From positions 1,364,001 to 1,428,000 of the forward strand of contig NZ_CP047209.1 of NCBI RefSeq assembly GCF_030408755.1: DNA of 64,000 nt. Reading direction: 5' to 3'. Origin of the DNA: Corynebacterium felinum. GTDB taxonomy: Bacteria > Actinomycetota > Actinomycetes > Mycobacteriales > Mycobacteriaceae. The notes under the pieces are model-generated. The model worked only from the letters and a program-made list of their open reading frames with translations, was not told the DNA's origin and searched no databases. The stretch's first letter is position 1; each line of letters begins with the position of its first letter. A program made the translations under genes and the position numbers. Shown piece by piece: positions 176 through 13,734 of the stretch.

Positions 176-1291
176 ATGAAAACTGTTCCCATTCAAATAG
201 CCCTGCCTGAAGATGAATACGCTGATCAGCTTGCGTTCTTAAAAAAGTGGGATGATGGGCCCAAGCCACCGGGCTGGGAACTGACACCCAAAGCGGTCGT
301 GGTGTTTATCTGTGGGGGATCGGGGCTGCGGCTTGAAAATAATCAGCGCATGGATATTGCGCCCAAATTCATTGGGGATCGATCATTGGTCGAACGCTGC
401 GTAGTTACTCTTGCTGGGGCGCGTGGTTTATTGCTGGTCGGTGAACCAGGTACTGCGAAATCCATGCTGAGCGAGCTTCTTTCCGCAGCTATTTGTGGGA
501 CTTCCGCACTCACCGTCCAAGGCAGCGCGGGCACCACCGAAGATCAGCTACGCTACGGCTGGAACTACGGCATGCTGTTAGCCGAAGGCCCCAGTGAAAA
601 AGCACTGGTACCCTCACCTGTATTAAGCGCGATGCGGGCAGGGAAGGTGGCCCGAATTGAAGAAATCACCCGCTGCCAACCCGAAATCCAAGACAGCCTT
701 GTACCCGTGCTGTCTGAGCGTCGAATAGCAGTCCCCGAACTGGGCGACTACAGCGTGCCCGCCCGCGAAGGATTCTGCGTAATCGCAACCGCGAACCTGC
801 GGGATCGTGGCGTGTCCGAAATGTCCGCCGCCCTCAAGCGCCGCTTCAACTTCGAACACGTCGACCCCATTGCCGACAAGAAGGCCGAGGTTGCGCTTGT
901 GAAAAGCCGCACCCAGCGTGCAATCGCCGATGCGCAGGCGCTTATCGACGTCGACGACGCCGTCGTAGACACACTCGTGACCATCTTCAAAGACCTCCGC
1001 AGCGGAATTACTGAAGAAGGCTGGAGCGTGGCGAAACCAACAACAGTGATGTCCACTGCGGAGGCTGTCGCCATTTCCACCTCAATCAGCTTGGCAGCTG
1101 CCTATTTTCCGGATTCGGGTGCGCAGCTCGCCCTGATCCCGGGCCACATTTTGGGTGCGGTGCGCAAAGACGATGAGAAAGATACCGAAAGAATCATCGC
1201 CTACTTCGACAAAGCCATCCAACGCCGCGCGAACGCCAACCCCAACTCGCCGTGGGCTATCTTGTGGGATAACCGCCATGGAATTAGTTAA
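176..1291 (+). CDS. MoxR-type AAA+ ATPase, YehL-like
   Basis: This is an AAA+ ATPase of the MoxR group (371 aa from ATG 176). Family members act as chaperone-like motors that remodel or load partners carrying VWA domains. The P-loop GEPGTAKS is at residues 89-96. A Walker B-like IEEITR segment is near 161-166, with Glu in place of the usual first Asp, followed by the MoxR pattern P-x-I-Q-x-x-L. A sensor-1 type IATANL segment and the arginine-rich LKRRF follow. An N-terminal segment of about 60 residues (DDGPKPPGW) precedes the AAA core and recurs in actinobacterial YehL-like proteins as I remember them. In-frame starts at 128 (TTG) and 152 (ATG) are possible, and none has a good ribosome site. 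The 3' end overlaps the next gene by 14 bases, so the two are one operon with the SWIM gene. ATPase identity is sure; the substrate is unknown. Confidence 0.88.
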   Translation: MKTVPIQIALPEDEYADQLAFLKKWDDGPKPPGWELTPKAVVVFICGGSGLRLENNQRMDIAPKFIGDRSLVERCVVTLAGARGLLLVGEPGTAKSMLSELLSAAICGTSALTVQGSAGTTEDQLRYGWNYGMLLAEGPSEKALVPSPVLSAMRAGKVARIEEITRCQPEIQDSLVPVLSERRIAVPELGDYSVPAREGFCVIATANLRDRGVSEMSAALKRRFNFEHVDPIADKKAEVALVKSRTQRAIADAQALIDVDDAVVDTLVTIFKDLRSGITEEGWSVAKPTTVMSTAEAVAISTSISLAAAYFPDSGAQLALIPGHILGAVRKDDEKDTERIIAYFDKAIQRRANANPNSPWAILWDNRHGIS

Positions 1292-4200
1292 TGAGTTGGA
1301 CTTTAGAAAGGCACTCGCAAGCCTGGGGGACTACCCCTATATCGTGGGGATTAGGCACCACTCGCCGGCATGCGCGCGCATGGTGGTTGAGGCAGCCAAG
1401 GCGCTCAATGTGCAGGCAATTGCGGTGGAACTTCCCGCCGACCTTGCCGATTGCGTGCATTGGATCGCGCATGAGGAAACGAAACCGCCCATAGCTATCG
1501 CCGCTGCGGTGGCTGGGCGTTTAAACTCAGGGGTTTTGTACCCATTTGCAGAATTCTCCCCAGAACTAGCAATCATGCGCTGGGCACTCGCACACAACAT
1601 CCCCATCTATCCCATCGACCTTCCCGTTGGCGCACCCATCGGCACAGCTGCAGGCTTAGAAGAATTGGATGGATTCACAGAGCTTAGTCAAAGTTCAGAG
1701 ATTATCAGCCAAGAAACTTGGGATACCTGTGTGGAAACCCGTGCGGTAGGCCAATCCTGGCAGGCTATCCGCACAGCGGCATTAGCTGTAGGTGTAGCCA
1801 CCCGGCTTGTCGAGCGGCCTGACTTGCGCACATTGCGACGCGAACGCTACATGCGCCATGCGCTGAAATCGGTTCCCGAGCGAACCCTCATTGTGGTGGG
1901 TTCCTACCACTGTAAAGGGCTCCTAGAAGATGACGGTGCCAGCATCGATAGCCTCGCAGACTGTGACACAGTGACCACATCCATCGTTCCCTATTCCTAT
2001 GCGCAATTAGACTCCCGATCCGGCTACGGGGCGGGAATCCGCGACCCTTGGTGGCAGCAAGAAGTGCTGGGCGCAAGCAAAGAGGAAATAACGCAGCTCG
2101 TCTATGAAGTCATGGTGAAAATTACGAGGCAGTTGCGTGCACAAGGCCATTCGGCGGGCACTGGGGAAACCATTGAGGCGGTGCGGGTTGCCTGCGACTT
2201 AGCTGGGCTTCGACAGCTGCCCAGTGTAGGGCGTCGAGAAGTAATTGAAGCAGTGACCACAGTTTTCGCCCACGGTGAAATCATGGGTCGGGGACGCGCC
2301 GTCGCCCGCGCATTAGAAAAAGTGCTGGTGGGAAATGTTTTAGGGAAAGTCGCACCAGGCACACCCACACCAGCGCTGGTGGAAGAAACCAAACGGCAAC
2401 TAGAAAAAGTTAAACTACCTGCCGATATTTCCGCACCCACCAAAACTTTTCGCCTCGACCCCTTCAGCGGGCCGACCGCACTAAAACGCCACGTGCTCTT
2501 AAACCAGCTAAAAGCGCTCAAGATTCCGTACGTGGTGGATAAAACCGTGGGATATAACCGCGGCTTCAAATCGCTAGGCTACAAGGTAAGTTGCACGTGG
2601 AGTCCAAGCGCAGAAACAGCTGTTAATCTCGCGGCAGCGCACGGCGTGACCCTAGCGCAAGCAGTCACCCATCTTCTGTTTGTGCGGCTTCAGGGGATGG
2701 ACCTGACCTTAGAAAAAATGTTGGGCGCACTCGAAACAGCCATCGGCTGTGGCCTCGATTTAGTTGTGCGCCACATTGTGGAGGAGTTGAGTACCTCGTG
2801 GTTGCAGCAACTCAGCCTGCGCCACGCAGTCACGGTAGCTGAAACACTGTCTGGGGTGGTATCTGCCACGGATGCTGGTGCGCTCATGCTGGAAGAATCC
2901 ACGAAAGAACAGTGCGTGGCACTATCCCAAGAGCTCGTGCCTATTATTATCGCCAGCATTGAAGGCATTGCGGGTTCTTCAGACCCGAATGATGCCCGCG
3001 CGTTAGGGCAGCTGATGTCTTTTGGGGGCGAATACGAAGGCGCACTTAATTATGCGCTGAGGCGAATGAAAACTAAAGGTAGCGACCTGATGCAAGGCGC
3101 GGCCTATGCGCTTGCGCCTGAAAGGAATACCTCAGCGATGGTGGGGTCGTGGGTTGATCGTGCCTCAAAGCCGAAACTGATTGGCTTTTTTGCGGCTTTA
3201 GGTTCCGCATGGCCGGAATCACCCCTCCTAGAAGAATTTATCCACAACATTGAGACTCTTCCTGACGCAACATTTGTTGGACACCTCCCGAACTACCGCG
3301 CCGTTTTCGATCACACAAGCCCTGTTGATCGTGAGGCGTTTCTTGATCGACTCGAAGAACGGTTGGGCAGCATTGACACAGAGTTTTCTTCCGGGCTTTC
3401 ACCCGAAGACGCACTGGAATTTGCCCAAAGAGACGCCAACGCGCGCAAGTTGCTTAAAACCCTTGGATTAATGGACTTAAGCTTCGACCCTGCCACCAGG
3501 TGGCGGCTTGTGCTCGGGGCGCAACCCGACCAGCTGGAAGGCAACGCACGCACCATGGCAGCCACCTTGGATGAGCTTTACGGTAGCAGCCCTGAGGAAA
3601 CATTCGGTGGGGATGGCCGGGTGAGAGCGGGGAATAAACCAGGCACCATTTCTACTCGGGAATGGAAGCAAGACATTGAGCTATTATTTGGCGACGAAGG
3701 CGTGCAAGAAATCTTTGCCGATGCCTTAGAAGCAGGGCGCAGTGATGTTGTTGCGCATCTGGATGCCGATTCCGTTGTCCCGAGTGTGGAAACACTGCAA
3801 ACAATCCTCAACATAAAAGGTGCACTCCCTGAAGCGAGGGTGGCGAAACTTCGACCCGTAGTGGAAAAAATTGTCAAAGAACTCAGCGAGCAACTAGCCA
3901 GCCAGATCCGGCCAGCGCTCTCGCAGCTAACCGCAGCCAAGGTGGGGACGAAGAAATCTGCGCGGCTCGCCCTTCCCGCCACAATCCGTGCGAACGTGAA
4001 GAATGTGGTGGAGATTGATGGCCGCCCCAGCATTGTTCCGGTGAATCCGAAGTTTTTCCAAACCCAGAAAAAAATCTCACCGTGGCATGTGATCGTGGTG
4101 GTCGATGTGTCCGGGTCAATGGAACGATCGACAATTTTCGCCGCGATGACCACAGCGATCCTCACCCAGATCCGCACCATGAAAGTCACCTTCATCACCT

Positions 4201-4574
4201 TCGACACAGAAGTGGTGGATTTAAGCGACCATGCTGATGACCCGTTGAGTTTGCTGCTGGAAATTTCTGTCGGCGGAGGCACCAATATTGCTCGGGCGCT
4301 ACGCTATGCGGAAAATCGTGTGAGCAACCCCTCCCGCACAGCAGTGATTCTGGTGACAGATTTTGAGGAATTCGGTCCGACAAACCCCCTGGTGGATGCA
4401 ATCCGACGCCTGCACAGCAGCGGGGTACGACTCATGGGCTGTGCAGCCTTGGATGATTCCGGACAAGCGACTTATAACGAAGCTATTGTTAAACAAGTGG
4501 TCAGCGCAGGTATGCGCGTTGCGCAGGTAACGCCCTTGGAGTTAGCGCGGTGGGTGACGGAGGTACTGAAGTGA
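1278..4574 (+). CDS. DUF5682 - VWA domain fusion protein (YehM+YehP-like)
   Basis: This 1098-aa protein joins two parts that E. coli encodes separately. The N-terminal part (about 1-750) is of the DUF5682/YehM type, opening with the motif GIRHHSP near residue 24 and AVELP near 50, and containing a VVGSYHCKGL motif near 207-216. The C-terminal 160 residues are a von Willebrand A domain with a complete MIDAS signature: DVSGS near residue 943, GGTN and VTDF further on. VWA partners of MoxR ATPases bind a metal ion and serve as adaptor or substrate-presenting subunits. I place the start at ATG 1278, inside the 3' end of the ATPase gene. An in-frame start at 1155 would give a 41-residue low-complexity extension and a long overlap, so it is unlikely. 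Cytoplasmic, with no signal or membrane segment. Biological role unknown. Confidence 0.85.
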   Translation: MELVNELDFRKALASLGDYPYIVGIRHHSPACARMVVEAAKALNVQAIAVELPADLADCVHWIAHEETKPPIAIAAAVAGRLNSGVLYPFAEFSPELAIMRWALAHNIPIYPIDLPVGAPIGTAAGLEELDGFTELSQSSEIISQETWDTCVETRAVGQSWQAIRTAALAVGVATRLVERPDLRTLRRERYMRHALKSVPERTLIVVGSYHCKGLLEDDGASIDSLADCDTVTTSIVPYSYAQLDSRSGYGAGIRDPWWQQEVLGASKEEITQLVYEVMVKITRQLRAQGHSAGTGETIEAVRVACDLAGLRQLPSVGRREVIEAVTTVFAHGEIMGRGRAVARALEKVLVGNVLGKVAPGTPTPALVEETKRQLEKVKLPADISAPTKTFRLDPFSGPTALKRHVLLNQLKALKIPYVVDKTVGYNRGFKSLGYKVSCTWSPSAETAVNLAAAHGVTLAQAVTHLLFVRLQGMDLTLEKMLGALETAIGCGLDLVVRHIVEELSTSWLQQLSLRHAVTVAETLSGVVSATDAGALMLEESTKEQCVALSQELVPIIIASIEGIAGSSDPNDARALGQLMSFGGEYEGALNYALRRMKTKGSDLMQGAAYALAPERNTSAMVGSWVDRASKPKLIGFFAALGSAWPESPLLEEFIHNIETLPDATFVGHLPNYRAVFDHTSPVDREAFLDRLEERLGSIDTEFSSGLSPEDALEFAQRDANARKLLKTLGLMDLSFDPATRWRLVLGAQPDQLEGNARTMAATLDELYGSSPEETFGGDGRVRAGNKPGTISTREWKQDIELLFGDEGVQEIFADALEAGRSDVVAHLDADSVVPSVETLQTILNIKGALPEARVAKLRPVVEKIVKELSEQLASQIRPALSQLTAAKVGTKKSARLALPATIRANVKNVVEIDGRPSIVPVNPKFFQTQKKISPWHVIVVVDVSGSMERSTIFAAMTTAILTQIRTMKVTFITFDTEVVDLSDHADDPLSLLLEISVGGGTNIARALRYAENRVSNPSRTAVILVTDFEEFGPTNPLVDAIRRLHSSGVRLMGCAALDDSGQATYNEAIVKQVVSAGMRVAQVTPLELARWVTEVLK

Positions 4575-6055
4575 CATATCAACTACCACCACAGCTTATT
4601 CATGAGATTGTTAGCGGCTTGCCCACGAGGTTGAAAAAGCGTGCAGAAGCACTCACAGCAGAAAGCAGCTCATGGACCATTAGCCCTGATCCGTTAATCG
4701 TGGTCATTGGATCAAACACGGTCAGCTTCACAGATGGCTCACTCGCCTGCGATTGCCTCCTGTCGCCCAAGTGCGCACACTGCGGTGCGGTCGCTCTCGC
4801 AGCAGACATAGAAGAAACACAAACAGACCAACAGCCTGCACACACAGCTCAAGACACGGGGGAGAACCCGCCTGAAACTACCACGACCCTAACCCAGCAG
4901 GAGGCGCTGAAAGAGGCACACGATCTTATTGCACCAGTGATCAAAGAATTGGTGTTCTACGGAATCCCAGCACTCAACCCGCTGGGATATGCGCAATTAG
5001 TAGCTGCGGTGCACCATGCGCGCACCCACAAACTCCACCGCCTTGAGCGTTCCTTAACCGCCGTGGCTAGGCTGTGGAAGCAATGCCGCACAACACAGGC
5101 GACGGCGAGACCGCGTCGACAAGCACTAGCGCACGCGTTCGGCGCGCTGCTAGAAATCACCCACCTGATCACACACCAACCTTTCAACCCCGCCACCGTT
5201 GGTGTAGCACGACGCGTCTATGCAGAACTAACACCCGGGCGTGACGACGGCATATTCACACCCATATTCGCCGAACCAGTAATCACGGATTCAGGCTTTG
5301 CCGGCGCGGTGGTCACCTTTGCAGATAAAACAGGCACACTGTTCACCGTGGGCAAAACCCCGCCGGGAAACAGCGACACAATCACACGAGTATGGCAAGG
5401 ACCAGTGCAACTAGGCGACATCAATACCTCACTTGCCCAGCTTTCGACCCGCACAGTGATTATCTCCGGCGGAACCGTCAGCGCCGACGGACGCATTGGC
5501 GCAGGGAAAAAGACCCGCGCTGCACAAGGACACGAAGTACTACTCGAACACGTCAGAGCAATCCCCGGTGTCCACTCAGTAACTGGCGAGGTGACTTATG
5601 CCGATTTTGCCAAAGTATCACTAGGGTCTGGGGGTGAATACAGCTTTAGCGCAACGGCACAACGCTGCGGCGTAGCAGGGCTAGTAAGCAAAATCCTGGG
5701 CGAAAAAATCACCCTCATCATCAGCGAAGAAAAAATTCGCGCGATATGGCTCGGGCAGCAACGACTCATCCCCGGACTCGATCTCCGCGGTGCTGATGTG
5801 GCAAAATTTAGTGCCTTCACACAACTAGCAAATATCCACCCCACCCCACACACAATTATCGCCTCGTGGATACAACGCTTCGCACTCCAAGGCAACCGAG
5901 GCATCTGTCACACACAGATAGCACGAGACGTTGAAAAACTCCGCAGCCTCAACGCGCCAACAGCAGCCCAACTCCTTGAACGCCTAGCAACCTGCTACAA
6001 CCAGCACACGGTCACCGCACTAGCGTTTTATGCATCAGCCACAAAGACACAGTAG
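4571..6055 (+). CDS. SWIM zinc-finger protein, YehQ-like
   Basis: A 494-aa protein with a SWIM zinc-finger signature near the N terminus: C60-x-C62-x5-C68-x-H70. SWIM domains bind zinc and mediate DNA or protein contacts. The rest has no motif I recognise; it includes a Thr/Gln/Glu-rich linker around residues 85-115 and a C-terminal region with mixed alpha/beta character. Start choice: GTG 4571 overlaps the stop of the VWA gene in a GTGA junction and is preceded by GGAGG at 4559-4563 with a 7-base gap. The GTG at 4550 lacks such a site. Position and motif match YehQ of the E. coli yehLMPQ set, so it probably works with the ATPase and VWA protein. The molecular function is not known. Confidence 0.82.
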   Translation: MTYQLPPQLIHEIVSGLPTRLKKRAEALTAESSSWTISPDPLIVVIGSNTVSFTDGSLACDCLLSPKCAHCGAVALAADIEETQTDQQPAHTAQDTGENPPETTTTLTQQEALKEAHDLIAPVIKELVFYGIPALNPLGYAQLVAAVHHARTHKLHRLERSLTAVARLWKQCRTTQATARPRRQALAHAFGALLEITHLITHQPFNPATVGVARRVYAELTPGRDDGIFTPIFAEPVITDSGFAGAVVTFADKTGTLFTVGKTPPGNSDTITRVWQGPVQLGDINTSLAQLSTRTVIISGGTVSADGRIGAGKKTRAAQGHEVLLEHVRAIPGVHSVTGEVTYADFAKVSLGSGGEYSFSATAQRCGVAGLVSKILGEKITLIISEEKIRAIWLGQQRLIPGLDLRGADVAKFSAFTQLANIHPTPHTIIASWIQRFALQGNRGICHTQIARDVEKLRSLNAPTAAQLLERLATCYNQHTVTALAFYASATKTQ

Positions 6056-6074
6056 AAAGCTCGTAACTTATCAC

Positions 6075-6109
6075 CCCTCGCCTGTGTGCTGTTTGCACAC
6101 AGGCGAGGG
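6075..6109. terminator. Perfect 15-bp hairpin between convergent operons
   Basis: The arms CCCTCGCCTGTGTGC (6075-6089) and GCACACAGGCGAGGG (6095-6109) are perfectly complementary around a TGTTT loop. The hairpin lies 20 bases after the SWIM gene and about 100 bases after the end of the leftward operon. It has no good T-run on either strand, so it may act as a bidirectional barrier or an imperfect terminator. Confidence 0.6.
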
Positions 6110-6210
6110 CAATACTGATGACAGTGCCCCCTTAGAACCACACTGTCGCACCAGCACACATAGCACCAAAACCTACAACCAACTCAACCCCACTGAAGAA
6201 CACCTAGGCA

Positions 6211-8031
6211 TCATCGGGAGTACAAATACCCAAGATACTCAGGCACCTCATCAAGTTGCGGAAGCGAAAGAGCAAAATCCTCCACTGCCGCAATCTCAGC
6301 AATAATCCCAGCAATCGCAGCAGCCAAAACCTCATCATTCTCAGCGAAAGCAAGGATACTTGTAGGATCATCGAGAAGCAGCTGCGCCTGATTTGGCGTA
6401 CACTCACGCATCTTCTCACTCACCTTCTGATTACGCACCTTCAAATAATGCATACCCGAGGAGGCAAGCTGGTGGAGAGGATGCGGCTGACCCGTTGCCG
6501 TACGCGACAGCGAAATAGGAGTGTTTGAAGCATAATCGAACAGCTGCGTTTCCTCCGCAAACCACGAACCCTCAACCGGACGCCGCACCGGAACCCGATC
6601 AAAACTAGTGAAGTCGAAGCGACCCAACGGACACAACACCACACTGTTTTCCTCAACTTCCCCGCCGAAAACTAAGTTATAATGCAACCCATTATCCGTC
6701 CCCAACGGCGAATCGAGAGTCTCGGACAGGGCAGGAAAAATAAAGCTCTCAAAATTAAACCTGAGATTGCGCGGAGCCTTCTTCCACCCCTGAGGATAAA
6801 AGCTCACACCCGGAAGCTTTCGTGCACGCAACTTCTTATCAAAATCCTTCCACGACACACCATCAGTATCGGGGGAGTGGAAACTAAACACAGGAGTAGT
6901 AGTCAGCTCCCGGAAATTACGGTGATACAACTGCTGCTGCCCAAAAATGCGACCACCCGGCTGACGCGACAACTGTGCACCCGGAGTCAACTCCACATCA
7001 CCAACAAACGCACGCCCATCGAGAAAATAAGAGTCGCAGAAAAACTCATCGAAATCACCCGCACGCTCGGAAAACGGTGTGCAAGTATCAGTACTCGCCC
7101 ACCAATAATAAGGCTCATAAGGATCGTTATACTGCAAGTAAAGATCACCATCGACTGGAATCGCATGCTTAAGATGCTCATGCGCAGGAATCGTATAGGT
7201 TACACGTTCATTCCCATTCAACAGCGTGAGAGTCGAATCAAAAGCCACACCAATCCACGGGAAATTACCAGTCACCGAGGCATCAGGGCCCGCTAATTCC
7301 ACCACTTGTTCAAACTCCGGCCACGTGTACTCGACGAAAGTACCCCGATTTAAACGAGTAGCAAGCTCCAACGCCGGATCGAAAGTAAACATCGTGCGCA
7401 GCGCGCCGGGATTGAGTTCTTTCAGTTCAGGGCGGTTGAGCTGGCTGAAAGAGTTGAGAAAAATCTTCCATGCTATTCCCGAGCCGATAATGCAGTGGTG
7501 GTCTTGTGCTAGCTCATCGAGCTTGTCGACGACCAGTTGCCGCGTCACAGCATTGTCAAGGAGGACGGCAAGGTCGGTTTCGAAAGCATCGTTGAATTCA
7601 GCGTCGAAGCATATTTCGAGCGCTGCGAGCAACGCAGTGCGGGCCTCCCGGTTTTTGACGAGGTGGCGAAGATCGCGGTGATGTTCTTCCAGCCACGGGT
7701 CGAGGCTGATATCTTCGGGGTTGATTTTCCACCCCATTCCTACAGCGGCAAGGGCATCGAGGTAGTCGAGGTGAATATTCGCATTATCTGCGATGCGGAA
7801 AACTCTGCGCGGGCTGGGGGCGATTTTAGCGATAGCCTCAAGCAAGCGCGGATCGGATACGCTCAGATATCCCCAGTCGGCGAGGATGAACTGGTGCTCA
7901 AGCCAGGTAATGAGAATCTTTTTGGTGCCGGTTATCTTAGACCAATAGCCCGTTTCAATGAGATCGTCAATATACAAATCAATGGATATGTACCCTTCGG
8001 CAGCTCGGGCGAAGAACAAGGCATCGTGCAT
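6211..8031 (-). CDS. Paralogue of the central region of the neighbouring 1459-aa protein
   Basis: A 606-aa soluble protein of unknown function. Residues 30-606 align by eye with residues 309-888 of the large protein encoded upstream. Shared landmarks are HLDYLDA, a HRDLR(H/Y)LV segment, RGT(F/L)VEYTWP, and a near-identical C-terminal stretch LxVRNQxVSxKM-R-x-C-T with LAAAIAGII and a final L(G/S)YLY. It stops where the shared region stops, so it looks like a domain duplicate rather than a random truncation. ATG 8031 is preceded on its strand by AAGGA about 10 bases away. It is separated from the large gene by 466 bases and may have its own promoter. No enzymatic motif, signal peptide or membrane segment is visible. 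It is probably a component of the MoxR/VWA/SWIM system that converges on it. Confidence 0.75.
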   Translation of the reverse strand: MHDALFFARAAEGYISIDLYIDDLIETGYWSKITGTKKILITWLEHQFILADWGYLSVSDPRLLEAIAKIAPSPRRVFRIADNANIHLDYLDALAAVGMGWKINPEDISLDPWLEEHHRDLRHLVKNREARTALLAALEICFDAEFNDAFETDLAVLLDNAVTRQLVVDKLDELAQDHHCIIGSGIAWKIFLNSFSQLNRPELKELNPGALRTMFTFDPALELATRLNRGTFVEYTWPEFEQVVELAGPDASVTGNFPWIGVAFDSTLTLLNGNERVTYTIPAHEHLKHAIPVDGDLYLQYNDPYEPYYWWASTDTCTPFSERAGDFDEFFCDSYFLDGRAFVGDVELTPGAQLSRQPGGRIFGQQQLYHRNFRELTTTPVFSFHSPDTDGVSWKDFDKKLRARKLPGVSFYPQGWKKAPRNLRFNFESFIFPALSETLDSPLGTDNGLHYNLVFGGEVEENSVVLCPLGRFDFTSFDRVPVRRPVEGSWFAEETQLFDYASNTPISLSRTATGQPHPLHQLASSGMHYLKVRNQKVSEKMRECTPNQAQLLLDDPTSILAFAENDEVLAAAIAGIIAEIAAVEDFALSLPQLDEVPEYLGYLYSR

Positions 8032-8497
8032 TCGTGGGGTTTCCTTAATCCTTAGTTGTGCAGTGGTGAGGTGAATGTAGTGTTCAGCCTTTCATTGGTG
8101 GGAATTTAGGTGTGGGTTCCCCACAGTGGCAATTGAGGAACTCATTCCAGTACTTCCCCGTGGCTAGCTACTCATCATAATCGGCCAAATCAGCAAATGG
8201 TTGTTGTTTTACTTAAGGTGATTCAGGTGTGTGCTGATAGTTAGTGCACGAAATGTGGCTTGAAATAGCACCCAAGTATTCTTGGCTTGAGACTCACATG
8301 TCATTGATCGTTCACCTGGGTGCAGCACCACGACTAAGACGTGGGGCTTGTCTGGGAGCAATGCAGTACTCACAATTCCTTCGATGAAAGTGGGGGATGA
8401 TCCCCGTGCTCTCGCAGCTATCGTTTCTACCCCTGCTCAAAAGCGCTCAGGTGAGCTACTAGCGGTTATTCACCTGAGTGTTCCACGGCTGATCGCA
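8032..8497. other. 466-base gap inside the leftward gene group
   Basis: There is no convincing gene on either strand. The gap presumably carries the end of the upstream transcript (hairpin at 8446-8478) and a promoter for the 606-aa gene. Short peptides can be read forward around 8230-8480 but without conserved motifs or ribosome sites. I see nothing that proves an insertion-sequence remnant. Confidence 0.4.
8446..8478 (-). terminator. Candidate terminator after the 1459-aa gene
   Basis: The arms CTCAGGTGA (8446-8454) and TCACCTGAG (8470-8478) form a 9-bp stem with a 15-base loop, about 20 bases beyond the stop of the large leftward gene. On the minus strand the stem is followed by CGCTTTTG, a short T-run. 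It may be an intrinsic terminator or attenuator limiting read-through into the 606-aa gene. Confidence 0.45.
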
Positions 8498-11400
8498 TCA
8501 GCGTCGCTGGCGATACCGTTCAGTGGTGAGTTCCTCATAGCCGGGGATATCACCAGAAACGTACCTTTGCCACACCTCCGCAAAAAGATCAGCGTAGGGA
8601 ACGATCGGTGGGCAACCAGCGACAATCGGACGGTTTTTCGCAGACTTCCACAACAGATAATGAGGAGCTTTCCACACCTCCATCGCAGGGCCCGTGTCAG
8701 ATTTTTCCAACCAACCACCCGGCAAGAAAACACTGCGACCGGTGCCTGCACGCTTAGCAGTAACAACAAGGCCCTTATCAACAAGCTCAGCTGCCACCTG
8801 ATCCAACTGCTTCTTCGACCAGCCGTTCCACTTCTTAATAGAGTTATCCATCGGGCGAGTCAAAGCAGCCAACTGCAAGAAATAGCGAGCCGCATCGCTG
8901 CTGAGCCCCAACGTACGCGAGGCCTCAGCAACAACCGCAGGAGCAACAACAGAAGGATCCTCCTTGACCCCTTCCACCACAGAACCCTGCGTGAGATAGT
9001 CAAGCAAGGAATCAAGATAGCCTTCCTTAACCAGCCGCAGAGCATGCTCATCCGGCGTGGACTTTCGCCAAGGGGCATTATCAAAGTCACTGCCCAAAGG
9101 GATATGTGGATCTTCGATCGTGACGTCACACACCTTGCGAATGCGCTCGGCCAAATTACCTGCCGCAACACTCGAAGGCTCAACTGCATGTGCCAGATGA
9201 ATGAAAACAGCAAGCAGCTTCGGGCCATAGTAGCGAAGATGGCTTGGCTCATCGCACACATCGTCTATAAAGTGATGATCCAACGATGTGCGCAAAGAAA
9301 GCGGAATTAAATCCCAGTGTTGCCACTCAAGAGTGATCCATGGCTTACCCCAGAGACGTTGCCAAGCATCAGCCAACGCAGCCACATCGGGCCCAGTACT
9401 AAGAAAATCTTTATGCCACGTCAATGCCAAAAGTCGCCAGCGCTGATCGGGGAGAACACGGCGGGTTATATCATTAAAACTATCAACGTCATTCTTTGAT
9501 ACAGCCAAAACCTCACTGACCTGAGCTGTAGTTTCATTATGGAATGGCATTTCATAATCATGAAGGCCACCGCCAAAAAGCAAAGCCCACACCTGTGGCG
9601 GGAAGGTAGTGACAGCCGCTGCCTGCTCAGCTATTTCGGTAATCGTGGCATTATCCCAACTAGGGCTGAGCTGCCCCGGCGTCGAATGGCGATTGACATG
9701 CCAGGCGAGAATCTCATCAAGGGCTGACTGAAATTCCTCTTTCGGAACAAAAAGCCCATCATCGATAACCTCATACTCCGCCGGTTCAGTGGGTTTTTCC
9801 GATAAATCAGGATTCCAGAAACGGGTATAGCTCGTTGGAGTTCTTTCAACAATCGAGAAATTATCCCACAAAACATCAGGTTCTGCATCCAAAGAATCAG
9901 ATCGCACTGTGACCCTTCGCCATGTGCCAAGCACACCCGAATCCACGCACCAGGTTAAAAACTCATGGTAATGGCGCACTTTTTCCAGCGGAAGACCAGG
10001 GCCTGATAGCCACGCCAGCCACCGCATTTCTTGACCAATAGTATCCCAAAGGAAACGTGCTTCCCACGGCGTACGGAAACTCCCATCGCGCTGCGGTGTA
10101 TTGAGCAACACCGCAGTCTTATACACCGCCTTGACAGAACCTTTCCACGTCTTATGAGGCATGGGATCAGGCGGCTGTGAAATGTTCACCTGTTGCACCG
10201 GTGATTTCTCAAGCGAGGCATACAGGTAGCTTAGAGGCTTCGGCACAGACTTCAGATGTGGAAGATCAATCTGCACACAATAAATTTCACTGATATCGAC
10301 GATAATTCCAGCGATAGCAGCAGCAAGAGTCTCATCGCCTTCCGCGAAATCAAGGATGCGTGTTGGCTCAGAAATAAGCTGTGCAGCTTGTTCCGTCGTG
10401 CATTGACGCATCTTCGTACTCACAGCCTGATTCCGTACCCGCAATTGATGGAACCCAACAGCATTGAGGGTATTCAGCACATGCTTCTTGCCGGTGTGTG
10501 TCAGCGCAGGCGCAATCGCGGTCATGGTTGCAGCATCGCACAGCGCAATAGGCTGTCGCCAAAAATAGTTAGTGTCTAAATACCACACCTGTGCGCCTGG
10601 CTTTTTTAGTGCCCTATAGTTCGCATGCTCGAAATGGAAGGTGCCCAAAGGGCTGACATACACCGATTTTTCTTCGTCGGTGTGAAATGACAATCCAAAA
10701 ATCCGATCACCCGCAACACCCAAAGGAGATTCGCTCGTGCTTGAAGTAACGCGGGTGGCAAAACTGTGCGTGAAATCTAATTCAGCACGAGGATCAACAG
10801 CTGCCGAAAGCTCGGGCACATCCAATCCTGGCAGTGAACCTGTAACCACGTGCGCATGAAAATCTTTGCGTGGGATCTTCTCACCATCAGGAAGGGCAAC
10901 CACAACGGAATCCTCTGAACTACGCACAGCATATACCGGGTTGAAACCAACGTGCGGGCCGGACGGTGCCGTGTTTAACTGCCCTTCGGTAATGGCAGTC
11001 GGGCCAATATACAAAGTTTGGTCGATAACGCTGACGTATTCTTCGACGGAGTGACTGGAGAAATTTTCCGTGATGGTGTGTGCCACACCCTCGGATAGCC
11101 ACATCCATTGATGCTCATTTGCTGAATGATCATAATAGGCATAAAAAACGTCATTATCAGTAGGAATGACTTTGCCGTGGTAGTTGCTTGGCAGCCGGTA
11201 TTTCCGATAATTGTCGCCGTTAAAAGTATGGAGATCCCTTCCGTTTTGCAGACACACCCATGGGTAGGTGGCGGAAATGTGGGTATTTTCCGTCATTATT
11301 TCGGGGGCTTGATCTTCAAATAATGGCCACGTGTATTCCACGAGTGTTCCGCGACGAAGTCGTTCTGCAAGCTCCTCAGCGAGATCAATGTGGAGAATTG

Positions 11401-12877
11401 CTTCGACCAATTCGGAAAAGTGCGTGCGCAACAACGGAGTGTCGAGGTGGCGGCGATGGTTATCAAAATTCTCCCACTGTGCTTTTGACCCACCGGTTAT
11501 AGCACGTTGATCGAGTAGTGCTTGGAGTTTCCATTCCACAACTTTTCGGGTGGGTTCTCCCGCAAGCAATGTTTTCAGATTGTGCTCTAGGGCTTTTGTG
11601 TCCAATCCTTTAACAAGGTCATCACGAATGCTTTCCTGCTCAACCAAATACCGAAGATCGCGGTGCCGTTGACGTAGCCATTCATCAAAACTAAAACGGC
11701 GTTCCCAATGATATTGCGGAGGGATTGGTTTCCAGTCGGTTTGTGCCGCAATGAAAGCATCAAGATAGTCAAGGTGGTACTTAACGCTGATGGTGCGAAT
11801 GGGCACGCCTGTGAGCCTTTCGGTGTTGCCCACGATAGCTTCAAGTAAGTCAGGGTTACTTTCTGCGAAGAACCGCCAGGTGGAATGCCCATGGCTGATG
11901 AGTGAATCTAACCATTGGGCAAACTTATCTGGGTTTGTGCGCAACGGATCCCATAACTTGAGTTTTTGCAATGTGCGCACGTACTCATCGGCATCCCACT
12001 GCTGCGGGATCATGGTGTAAAGGCATTCAGCTAAATTCGGCTGCGTTTTTAAGAGCTCAGGTAGCGCCTTGATAATCTTTTTCAGCAACGTTTCTGAGGA
12101 ACGAGGGAAACTTCGGGTGGGCACATAAGCGGCGATAAAAGAGTGCTCGACTTCGCGCAGGCTCATCCCGAGGTGTTTGCCAATGAAATGGAGGTCTTTA
12201 AAAGCGTTCGCGTAAATGCCGACACCAGCTTTGGCCTGCTCAAGCAGAAGCTGGAAGAAATAATCGTAGGCTTCCTGCGGTTGGCTGCGTGAGAGAGCAT
12301 CGCGAGCTTCTTGGGAAAGAGTTTTAGCACTCACTATGCCTAAGGAAGCAAACTCGGCGAAAGCGTGGGCATGACGTTGCGGATCGATGCTCAGCGAGTG
12401 ATTGCGTTCGGTTTCACGCGCTTTACTGAAAAACTGTTTTGCATAGCTTGTGTTCTCAACGTCGTTGAAAATGCGGGCAATTTCTTCCAAGAAGGTGGGG
12501 AGGAAATGTGGAGCTGAAGCTTGGAGCATGCCAGCGAGTTCGGTGATGTGCTTTCTGACCTTGCTTGGCTCACTTTTTGCTTTTCGACGCGCCCACTCGA
12601 CGTCTTTGACTAAGTTCAGGGCATGCCGTGCGTTTGGGGGATCGCTGAGAATTGCCCATGCGGGAAAACCGATGGCGCGTTTAGGGGTGAAACCTACCTC
12701 TTTGCTGTGTGTTGTGCGTAAGCCGACTGTATCTAAGGCTAAAGTTTCAGCTTCGATCAAAGGCTGGGCAACTAATTTAATCAGTGGTGCGTTTGTGCCT
12801 AGTCCAGTATCAATGCTTAAAGCGACAAGGGGAACATCGTTGGTGCGTGCATGTGTGTGGATTTGTCCAATACTCAT
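8498..12877 (-). CDS. Large three-part protein with C-terminal winged-helix-like region
   Basis: A 1459-aa protein, one of the largest here, with function unknown. I see three parts. Residues 1-300 are helical, with the segment FLPTFLEEIARIF and NTSYAKQFFSKARE-type text that I recall from long actinobacterial proteins annotated only as DNA-binding protein. Residues 309-888 are the region repeated in the 606-aa neighbour. Residues 900-1459 form a third part; within it 1320-1390 resemble a winged helix (LGLSSDAARYFLQL, then a helix, then GRSVFLPGGW). There is no signal peptide, P-loop or membrane helix. The gene starts only 20 bases after the DUF4132-like gene, so the two are co-transcribed. 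Context suggests a partner or effector of the MoxR-VWA-SWIM set; nucleic-acid binding is inference only. Confidence 0.75.
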   Translation of the reverse strand: MSIGQIHTHARTNDVPLVALSIDTGLGTNAPLIKLVAQPLIEAETLALDTVGLRTTHSKEVGFTPKRAIGFPAWAILSDPPNARHALNLVKDVEWARRKAKSEPSKVRKHITELAGMLQASAPHFLPTFLEEIARIFNDVENTSYAKQFFSKARETERNHSLSIDPQRHAHAFAEFASLGIVSAKTLSQEARDALSRSQPQEAYDYFFQLLLEQAKAGVGIYANAFKDLHFIGKHLGMSLREVEHSFIAAYVPTRSFPRSSETLLKKIIKALPELLKTQPNLAECLYTMIPQQWDADEYVRTLQKLKLWDPLRTNPDKFAQWLDSLISHGHSTWRFFAESNPDLLEAIVGNTERLTGVPIRTISVKYHLDYLDAFIAAQTDWKPIPPQYHWERRFSFDEWLRQRHRDLRYLVEQESIRDDLVKGLDTKALEHNLKTLLAGEPTRKVVEWKLQALLDQRAITGGSKAQWENFDNHRRHLDTPLLRTHFSELVEAILHIDLAEELAERLRRGTLVEYTWPLFEDQAPEIMTENTHISATYPWVCLQNGRDLHTFNGDNYRKYRLPSNYHGKVIPTDNDVFYAYYDHSANEHQWMWLSEGVAHTITENFSSHSVEEYVSVIDQTLYIGPTAITEGQLNTAPSGPHVGFNPVYAVRSSEDSVVVALPDGEKIPRKDFHAHVVTGSLPGLDVPELSAAVDPRAELDFTHSFATRVTSSTSESPLGVAGDRIFGLSFHTDEEKSVYVSPLGTFHFEHANYRALKKPGAQVWYLDTNYFWRQPIALCDAATMTAIAPALTHTGKKHVLNTLNAVGFHQLRVRNQAVSTKMRQCTTEQAAQLISEPTRILDFAEGDETLAAAIAGIIVDISEIYCVQIDLPHLKSVPKPLSYLYASLEKSPVQQVNISQPPDPMPHKTWKGSVKAVYKTAVLLNTPQRDGSFRTPWEARFLWDTIGQEMRWLAWLSGPGLPLEKVRHYHEFLTWCVDSGVLGTWRRVTVRSDSLDAEPDVLWDNFSIVERTPTSYTRFWNPDLSEKPTEPAEYEVIDDGLFVPKEEFQSALDEILAWHVNRHSTPGQLSPSWDNATITEIAEQAAAVTTFPPQVWALLFGGGLHDYEMPFHNETTAQVSEVLAVSKNDVDSFNDITRRVLPDQRWRLLALTWHKDFLSTGPDVAALADAWQRLWGKPWITLEWQHWDLIPLSLRTSLDHHFIDDVCDEPSHLRYYGPKLLAVFIHLAHAVEPSSVAAGNLAERIRKVCDVTIEDPHIPLGSDFDNAPWRKSTPDEHALRLVKEGYLDSLLDYLTQGSVVEGVKEDPSVVAPAVVAEASRTLGLSSDAARYFLQLAALTRPMDNSIKKWNGWSKKQLDQVAAELVDKGLVVTAKRAGTGRSVFLPGGWLEKSDTGPAMEVWKAPHYLLWKSAKNRPIVAGCPPIVPYADLFAEVWQRYVSGDIPGYEELTTERYRQRR

Positions 12878-12897
12878 GAGTCTTTAGCCCTCGTCTT

Positions 12898-13734
12898 CTA
12901 TTTTTCTACCTGCATAAATGTATTCGCACATGCGGATTCCTTCACTCCAGGCAATAGGCCCAACATCGTGTGTGTGTGTATTTCAGTATTCGCACTAAAA
13001 AATTTCAAAACTCCCAGATGTGCTTCGCTGAAGGGATCGTAGGCTTCCAGCTCAAGCAGGGCATTGATGCGTTGGCCAGCTTCGTTTACTTCGACGGTGG
13101 CACCATACATATCTGCCTTGAACCCACCATTACGGGCGCGACTAAAAAGATGGGATGCCTGTTCAAAATGTGCATCTTTATAGCGCTGCACATGTTCGCG
13201 CTGCGTTTGTGCATCTGCGGGTTTGTGGTGGATTTCGCGAAACAGTTGGTCAATTCCTTGAGTTGCCCCAAGCTCGGAAGAAAACTCGCGCCAATCCTCA
13301 ATATCGCAAAGAACAGCAGGGTGGGGGATAGTGATGGTCTCAGCGGTGATCTCTACGGATTCTCCGTCAAGATCCGCAACAGCCACACCTGTGTGCCGTA
13401 TATCGCGTAAAAGCCCTACAACTGTGCCATCGGTGATGACAAGGTTGTGCAGATATTTGCGCCAGATTGGGTCTGGCCACAACTGTTGGATCGCAATAAC
13501 AGGGATCGGATGCCCGTGGAGGAACCACTCTGCAACGTTTTGGGCGCATTCTTGATCATGCTGAGTAAGAACAGTGAGCAAACCTGCAAGTCGATCAAAA
13601 GCAGGAGTCTTTTTTGCTTTCGCCGGTACAGATTTTAATACTCTCCCCTTGGCATTGCGGGCTTTAATCTGCCCATCTTCAACTTTCAGAAAGTAGTCTC
13701 CGGCGGGGATCCACCCATCAGCAGAATCAGTCAT
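12898..13734 (-). CDS. Short DUF4132 (MolR/YehI)-like protein
   Basis: A 278-aa protein. The middle and C-terminal half carry the layout I associate with DUF4132, the domain of E. coli MolR and YehI: an aromatic NLVITDGTVVGLLRD stretch near 95-110, then ITIPHPAVL..W near 138-150, then a GIDQLFREIH segment near 170-178, and a mixed region ending LELEAYDPFS. Full-length family members exceed 1000 residues, so this is a compact version, possibly complemented by the adjacent 1459-aa protein. It is the first gene of the leftward operon; the next ATG follows 20 bases later. YehI lies next to yehLMPQ in E. coli, which supports a functional link. The DUF4132 assignment is from memory of the pattern and is moderate. 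Confidence 0.65.
   Translation of the reverse strand: MTDSADGWIPAGDYFLKVEDGQIKARNAKGRVLKSVPAKAKKTPAFDRLAGLLTVLTQHDQECAQNVAEWFLHGHPIPVIAIQQLWPDPIWRKYLHNLVITDGTVVGLLRDIRHTGVAVADLDGESVEITAETITIPHPAVLCDIEDWREFSSELGATQGIDQLFREIHHKPADAQTQREHVQRYKDAHFEQASHLFSRARNGGFKADMYGATVEVNEAGQRINALLELEAYDPFSEAHLGVLKFFSANTEIHTHTMLGLLPGVKESACANTFMQVEK

Follow-up and report, generated by a model that had tools for sequence, protein, structure and literature searches.

A six-gene MoxR-VWA system of Corynebacterium felinum that is related to, yet distinct from, the Escherichia coli yeh cluster

Introduction

Two groups of genes that converge across a short gap raise the question of whether they are neighbors by chance or parts of one machine, and, if the latter, what such a machine might do. 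Here we address this question for a 64,000-nucleotide stretch of the Corynebacterium felinum genome (assembly GCF_030408755.1, contig NZ_CP047209.1, positions 1,364,001 to 1,428,000; hereafter the window), in which six genes at positions 176 to 13,734 form two converging operons. We find that the system is real and single, and that it is related to the yeh cluster of E. coli yet distinct from it. On balance we favor the view that the six genes encode one MoxR-VWA machine in which a putative DUF5682 hydrolase is steered by duplicated recognition proteins, because the genes are linked and co-occur and because all kinds of part except the large protein P1459 have relatives in the yeh cluster.

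Results

The rightward group is tightly packed and comprises a MoxR-type AAA+ ATPase (176..1291, forward strand; Pfam AAA_5, 1e-38), whose ATG at 176 lies within a frame open from 128, a DUF5682-VWA fusion (1278..4574, forward strand; likely start ATG 1278; Pfam DUF5682 6.9e-114 and VWA_CoxE 8.5e-48) and a SWIM-type zinc-finger protein carrying the motif CDCLLSPKCAH (4550..6055, forward strand), with overlaps of 14 nt between the first two genes and 25 nt between the last two. Reading in the opposite direction, the left-hand group begins with a short DUF4132 protein of 278 amino acids (aa; 12898..13734, reverse strand; Pfam DUF4132 1.1e-26), followed after 20 nt by P1459, a 1459-aa protein whose ends are conserved and whose middle varies (8498..12877, reverse strand), and after a further 466 nt by the gene for a 606-aa protein that BLASTP matches to the P1459 middle (6211..8031, reverse strand); 155 nt separate the two groups. 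The 1459-aa, 606-aa and SWIM proteins matched no family at E<=0.001 in Pfam, NCBIfam or PADLOC, searches of PDB sequences returned VWA-type or chance-level matches only, and a scan of 5900-8600 for promoters and terminators found signals no more than in shuffled sequence. The open reading frames (ORFs) and the Pfam names for MoxR, DUF5682-VWA and DUF4132 bear out the two converging operons described by a first-pass annotation of the sequence; its leftward list stands as three genes, with DUF4132 as the 278-aa gene, but the 606-aa protein does not survive as a separate gene type, being a paralogue of P1459.

The best 80 of 492 confirmed matches in a P1459 profile scan of genome contigs fall into 74 distinct loci, some of which share one genome. 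MoxR, DUF5682 and SWIM genes are present in 45 of the 51 loci with at least 6 kb of downstream sequence, on one strand in all 45 and with MoxR no more than 3 kb from a P1459 gene in 43 of them; the exceptions (L019, L021, L022, L024, L047 and L076) are without MoxR. DUF4132 is found in 65 of the 66 loci with at least 1 kb upstream, L061 being the exception. The usual order runs from DUF4132 through one to several copies of P1459 to MoxR, DUF5682-VWA and SWIM; Streptomyces, Saccharothrix, Micromonospora and Actinomyces are among the genera that show it, and one co-directional relative comes from a Streptomyces megaplasmid that is annotated. In L059, L094, L099 and L101, four loci of the same genus as the window, the order is MoxR, DUF5682-VWA, SWIM, DUF4132 and P1459, all in one direction. 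Because the relatives are co-directional, the convergent layout of the window is most readily explained by an inversion of the left group.

Co-occurrence points the same way as linkage. Among 201 same-genus genomes, P1459 was detected in 24 and DUF5682 in 19, with both in 17, P1459 only in 7 and DUF5682 only in 2 (Fisher test, 2.7e-17, uncorrected for kinship). Linkage can be loose, as the listed P1459 copies lie about 50 kb from DUF5682 in G334 and about 150 kb in G507, although copies nearer DUF5682 are possible in both, the genus search having scored two candidates a genome. In a 296-genome sample of the phylum, all seven genomes with P1459 have DUF5682 within about 5 kb; for five of them the nearness itself is the evidence, because they belong to the same family, where DUF5682 is nearly universal. 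DUF4132 occurs in 15 genomes of this sample and DUF5682 in 21, with both in 12. We also examined 13 genomes with a partnerless or cut-short P1459 locus, which overlap the genus sample, and 10 of them have DUF5682 somewhere; a second search of six genomes with a window-type profile, run without a positive control, found nothing. Within the Streptomycetaceae, P1459 is present in 76 of 150 genomes, and co-occurrence is uninformative there because DUF5682 of any kind is present in 147 of the 150. Together, the neighborhood counts and the genus co-occurrence uphold the earlier proposal that the six genes form one system: by those counts the left genes are neither widespread without MoxR, VWA and SWIM partners nor randomly linked to them.

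Which known systems does this one resemble? Profiles built from the loci match E. coli YehL (MoxR, 5.1e-132), YehM (1.7e-91) and YehP (8.9e-76), and the DUF4132 profile matches the YehI C-terminus at 6.9e-13, with a probability of 98.9 and an E of 3e-17 when compared profile to profile with YehI-type proteins. The SWIM profile matches YehQ weakly (E 4.2e-4 overall, 8.9e-5 for the best stretch; HH probability 7%). These matches, clear for all but YehQ, agree with the parallel to yehI-yehL-yehM-yehP-yehQ drawn by the first-pass annotation, and the order of parts, DUF4132, MoxR, DUF5682, VWA and SWIM, is the same. The E. coli cluster differs in that DUF4132 forms the C-terminal end of the large YehI, a gene each encodes DUF5682 and VWA, and P1459 is without a match among the cluster proteins tested with its profile.

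Three architectures can be distinguished across the regions compared. Architecture A consists of MoxR, DUF5682 and VWA, with no DUF4132 or SWIM found within about 7 kb on each side in L151-L154 and L156-L158, at limited sensitivity. Architecture B, the Yeh type, has long DUF4132 and YehQ-like SWIM proteins (E. coli, L155, L159 and L161), and architecture C, the window type, has a short DUF4132 protein together with P1459. Regions that lack P1459 have both DUF4132 and SWIM or neither, which fits an add-on module.

Kaur et al. 2020 (PMC7159879) describe ternary conflict systems of the MoxR-vWA kind, and these, above all the beta-propeller class, are also among the systems closest to that of the window, as far as the accessible portions of that paper show. 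Shared features are MoxR, VWA, a large component and the P-loop form GxxxTAKS; a propeller is only predicted here. In their beta-propeller class, however, the propeller lies C-terminal to VWA, whereas here the propeller-like part falls in P1459 and the VWA domain ends its protein; the same portions of the paper do not mention SWIM, YehL, MolR, DUF4132, WGR or DUF5682, and DUF5682, SWIM and DUF4132 are the parts particular to the window system. The NorQ-NorD and CoxD-CoxE chaperones likewise combine MoxR with a CoxE-type VWA partner, a combination that the accessible portions of the same source treat as an established ATP-driven remodelling pair (PMC7159879), but the window system has DUF5682, DUF4132, SWIM and P1459 in addition. 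In keeping with the earlier statement that the system is undescribed, no description of it and no paper on DUF5682 were found in the literature searched, from which subscription journals are mostly absent, so that earlier accounts are possible.

The window MoxR carries the P-loop sequence motif GEPGTAKS (nt 440-463, forward strand), which is found in 59 of 67 homologous MoxR ORFs. The other eight have GVPGTAKT, and all of these come from L010-L017, loci fetched around DUF5682 genes not fused to VWA. The bpMoxR model PF20030 scored 22.1 bits on the window protein, below its cut-off of 27. The variant GxxxTAKS is reported for two MoxR-vWA conflict classes in the accessible portions of Kaur et al. 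2020 (PMC7159879), but it is not conflict-specific, because E. coli YehL has GEPGTAKS as well.

The VWA_CoxE domain of the fusion protein (3894..4556, forward strand; Pfam residues 914-1134 of 1139) scores 163.1 bits against a cut-off of 26.4 and contains a MIDAS-type (metal ion-dependent adhesion site) DVSGS at nt 4104-4118. An AlphaFold2 model of the protein (predicted local distance difference test score 82.7) comprises an alpha/beta N-terminal domain, then helices, then VWA. Structure searches with this model returned lists filled by VWA folds, the NorD VWA among them, and barely probed the parts that the listed rows do not span.

The DUF5682 N-terminal domain may hold a putative metal-dependent hydrolase site, as its conserved motifs suggest. 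Invariant DUF5682 motifs span 1347..1910 on the forward strand (GxRHHxP at 1347-1367, ExP within 1425-1436, FSPE at 1554-1565, RExxM within 1836-1853 and GxxH at 1899-1910), and in 37 fused proteins the residues R26, H27, H28, P30, E51, P53, F93-E96, D114, R188, E189, M192, G208 and H211 are invariant (numbering follows the 1098-aa model). The order of the motifs, with GxxH close to the start, E on the strand after it, and then R(N/E)xx(W/M) and GxxH, resembles that of TraB/GumN, which we take to belong to the Tiki superfamily and whose motif residues are presumably catalytic, although the overall sequence match is not significant. In a local-mode comparison that used a wider profile, TraB, for which plasmid matches supplied the relatives, aligned with DUF5682 over 26 columns at the RExxM..GxxH pair (score 31, P 0.0022), against scores of no more than 17.7 (P at least 0.22) for five control profiles; the first motif pair aligned only in a lower-ranked alignment (P 0.078). 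We treat the TraB/Tiki likeness as a lead only, because the HH probability is 12-13%. With a narrower profile and other alignment options there was no TraB match, a Pfam scan of four DUF5682 N-termini gave no TraB-like match at E<=10, and these results, like the low HH probability, mark the TraB/Tiki similarity as weak. A TraB search that covered 43 of 44 genomes found none, and a protein search with YbaP returned close relatives only. A further, distant DUF5682 form was seen in L160, as a 1430-aa frame with VWA and MoxR in a different order.

SWIM zinc fingers are defined by the motif CxCx(n)CxH. The window protein has CDCLLSPKCAH, a motif of this type, at nt 4748-4780 (forward strand), and its spacing is kept in 51 of 52 homologous ORFs as well as in E. 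coli YehQ. The Pfam SWIM model gave no match to the window protein at E<=10 and matches YehQ at 1.2e-7, and we therefore base the SWIM label on the motif and its spacing rather than on the Pfam model.

A protein from a Corynebacterium metagenome-assembled genome is 97% identical to P1459. Within P1459 a beta-propeller-like region is predicted at about residues 509-820 (10418..11353, reverse strand), an assignment of borderline significance. The 606-aa protein is a paralogue of P1459 residues 297-887 (33% identity, E 1e-72 by BLASTP; profile positions 287-894) and, judged by this similarity, is a detached copy of the middle module, helical and propeller-like. Detached middles are likewise encoded at L018 (661 aa, profile 268-894) and at L026 (701 aa, profile 194-895), and P1459 copies that lack the propeller part at L018 (1041 aa, beside the 661-aa gene), L028 and L034; because both forms occur, the P1459 middle behaves as a module. 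At L018:18773-24504 the propeller-less copy is followed directly by the middle-module gene, as if one gene had been split. At least two P1459 ORFs of at least 600 aa are present in 9 of the 74 loci as well as in the window, and across 20 same-locus copy pairs the ends are mostly 50-80% identical and the middle mostly 30-50%. Some Streptomycetaceae frames of about 660-700 aa match only the C-terminal third of P1459 (G182:C19:287866-289512, with similar ones in G555, G570, G580 and G586). Homology between YehI and P1459 is not supported, since profile and profile-profile comparison detected none.

Directly upstream of the window, with a phenylalanyl-tRNA synthetase beta gene on one side and the six genes on the other, lies a type I-G-like CRISPR-Cas locus (L093:2684-11840, where window base 1 is L093 position 12001). 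It encodes Cas3g, Cas5-6g-like, Cas7g and Cas6-like proteins reading away from MoxR, the last of these genes starting about 0.3 kb upstream of MoxR, and has an array of 32 repeat-spacer units with 61-nt spacing in which one spacer occurs twice; this adjacency was seen at one locus only.

None of the six proteins matched PADLOC at E<=0.001. We then compared 136 of 160 ORFs flanking 43 relatives' loci (the last loci excluded) with 136 control ORFs from 37 regions, mostly of the same genomes and taken at fixed, not random, places on contig 1, using crude gene calling for both and PADLOC at E<=1e-15. The flanks gave 8 families in 11 member matches (AriA 2, SspA 2, DndA 2, AbiLi, mad3, SoFic, mad2 and DrmC) and the controls 26 families, many of them single-match PD-T4-6 models, with mad3 2, mad6, MkoA and REase_II among those listed. 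The flank names are somewhat more defense-specific, and we claim only that there is no clear enrichment, because proteins matching several PADLOC models are indistinguishable in these counts. A second, uncontrolled flank set, drawn in part from loci of the first, covered 103 of 123 ORFs from 18 of 20 same-genus loci and contained mad3 twice and AbiLi and AriA once each; at least one of its ORFs, the YehQ-like gene of L103, belongs to the system itself. Viral contigs gave 22 pattern matches and no P1459 relative.

Beyond the system, window:14028-22466 holds YwiC-like and sulfur transport/TusA genes and probable arginine biosynthesis genes (semialdehyde dehydrogenase, ArgJ, amino acid kinase, aminotransferase and ornithine carbamoyltransferase).

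Discussion

In the machine that we favor, MoxR would form an ATP-driven ring and engage VWA at the MIDAS site, in the manner of NorQ-NorD and further MoxR-VWA pairs; this action would switch or deliver the fused DUF5682 domain, perhaps a metal-dependent hydrolase. DUF4132, SWIM and P1459 would constitute an add-on recognition module, in which P1459 docks by its conserved ends and binds targets through its variable propeller-like middle, having diversified through tandem duplication with the middle split off or lost. The trigger would most likely be a foreign or damaged molecule, in a conflict or stress response.

Several observations weigh against this proposal. Full-length P1459 occurs without a DUF5682 match in three same-genus genomes (G370, G428 and G468) and in G305, and DUF4132 adjoins P1459 in G370, G428 and G305, where the left group thus stands alone; of the other P1459-only genomes, G396 has a stop-broken copy, G400 and G424 show fragments only, and G427 is 53% complete. 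The genomes of L019, L024 and L058 are likewise without DUF5682, that of L024 measuring only 1.6 Mb. The near-universal presence of DUF5682 in the Streptomycetaceae suits a core with a housekeeping role more than one engaged in conflict, the propeller assignment is marginal, the relatives' flanks show no clear defense enrichment, and we know of no interaction, activity or phenotype for the system. That the window holds two unrelated neighboring operons, as its convergent layout and the few genomes that have P1459 but yield no DUF5682 match might suggest, is nonetheless highly improbable given the one-strand linkage in relatives (45 of 51 and 65 of 66 loci) and the co-occurrence.

As to what the machine does, a tentative possibility is an anti-phage or anti-plasmid conflict system, in which P1459 variants recognize invader products, MoxR-VWA sets the threshold and DUF5682 is the effector. 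The patchy distribution of P1459 (24 of 201 same-genus genomes), its tandem copies with divergent middles, the CRISPR-Cas locus adjoining MoxR, the presence of P1459 loci on Streptomyces megaplasmids and the GxxxTAKS P-loop, shared with the two classes in the accessible portions of Kaur et al. 2020, are consistent with such a role, but GxxxTAKS also occurs in YehL, PADLOC matches none of the six proteins, the relatives' flanks show no clear defense excess over controls and the viral contigs hold no P1459 relative. Because conflict thus has both support and counter-points, it ranks close to a somewhat more doubtful reading, in which the machine is a chaperone for maturation or cofactor insertion on the pattern of NorQ-NorD or CoxD-CoxE, and DUF5682 and P1459 are its adaptors or clients. 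The VWA_CoxE domain, the NorD VWA among the fold matches and the 147 of 150 Streptomycetaceae with DUF5682 speak for a chaperone, while no metalloenzyme gene lies inside the one annotated operon examined and duplicated P1459 with variable middles would be unusual for one. A DNA-damage or general stress response machine appears less likely again. According to the accessible portions of one study, Deinococcus radiodurans drA0166, a DUF4132 gene that putatively shares an operon with drA0165, is a member of the DdrO regulon, and the level of its product increases upon mitomycin C treatment (PMC8533742); this hints at a stress role, but the parallel concerns the DUF4132 gene and not a comparison of MoxR-DUF5682-VWA.

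Extending the one-machine proposal, we offer as a speculative and rather unlikely further step a third architecture of Yeh-type MoxR-VWA machines, in which the duplicated P1459 proteins act as recognition subunits that can replace one another. Their propeller module could be exchanged, dropped or supplied by its own gene, and one ATPase and one DUF5682 hydrolase could serve several of them, also from distant loci, as a form of modular innate immunity in Actinomycetota. Our analysis gives P1459, a large uncharacterised family, a defined partner set and connects an E. coli cluster that is unstudied with an operon widespread among actinobacteria. It also offers testable residues and modules in the DUF5682 His/Glu motifs, the VWA site and the propeller-like module. 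Should the recognition reading prove right, a modular MoxR-driven sensing machine would be added to the known repertoire.

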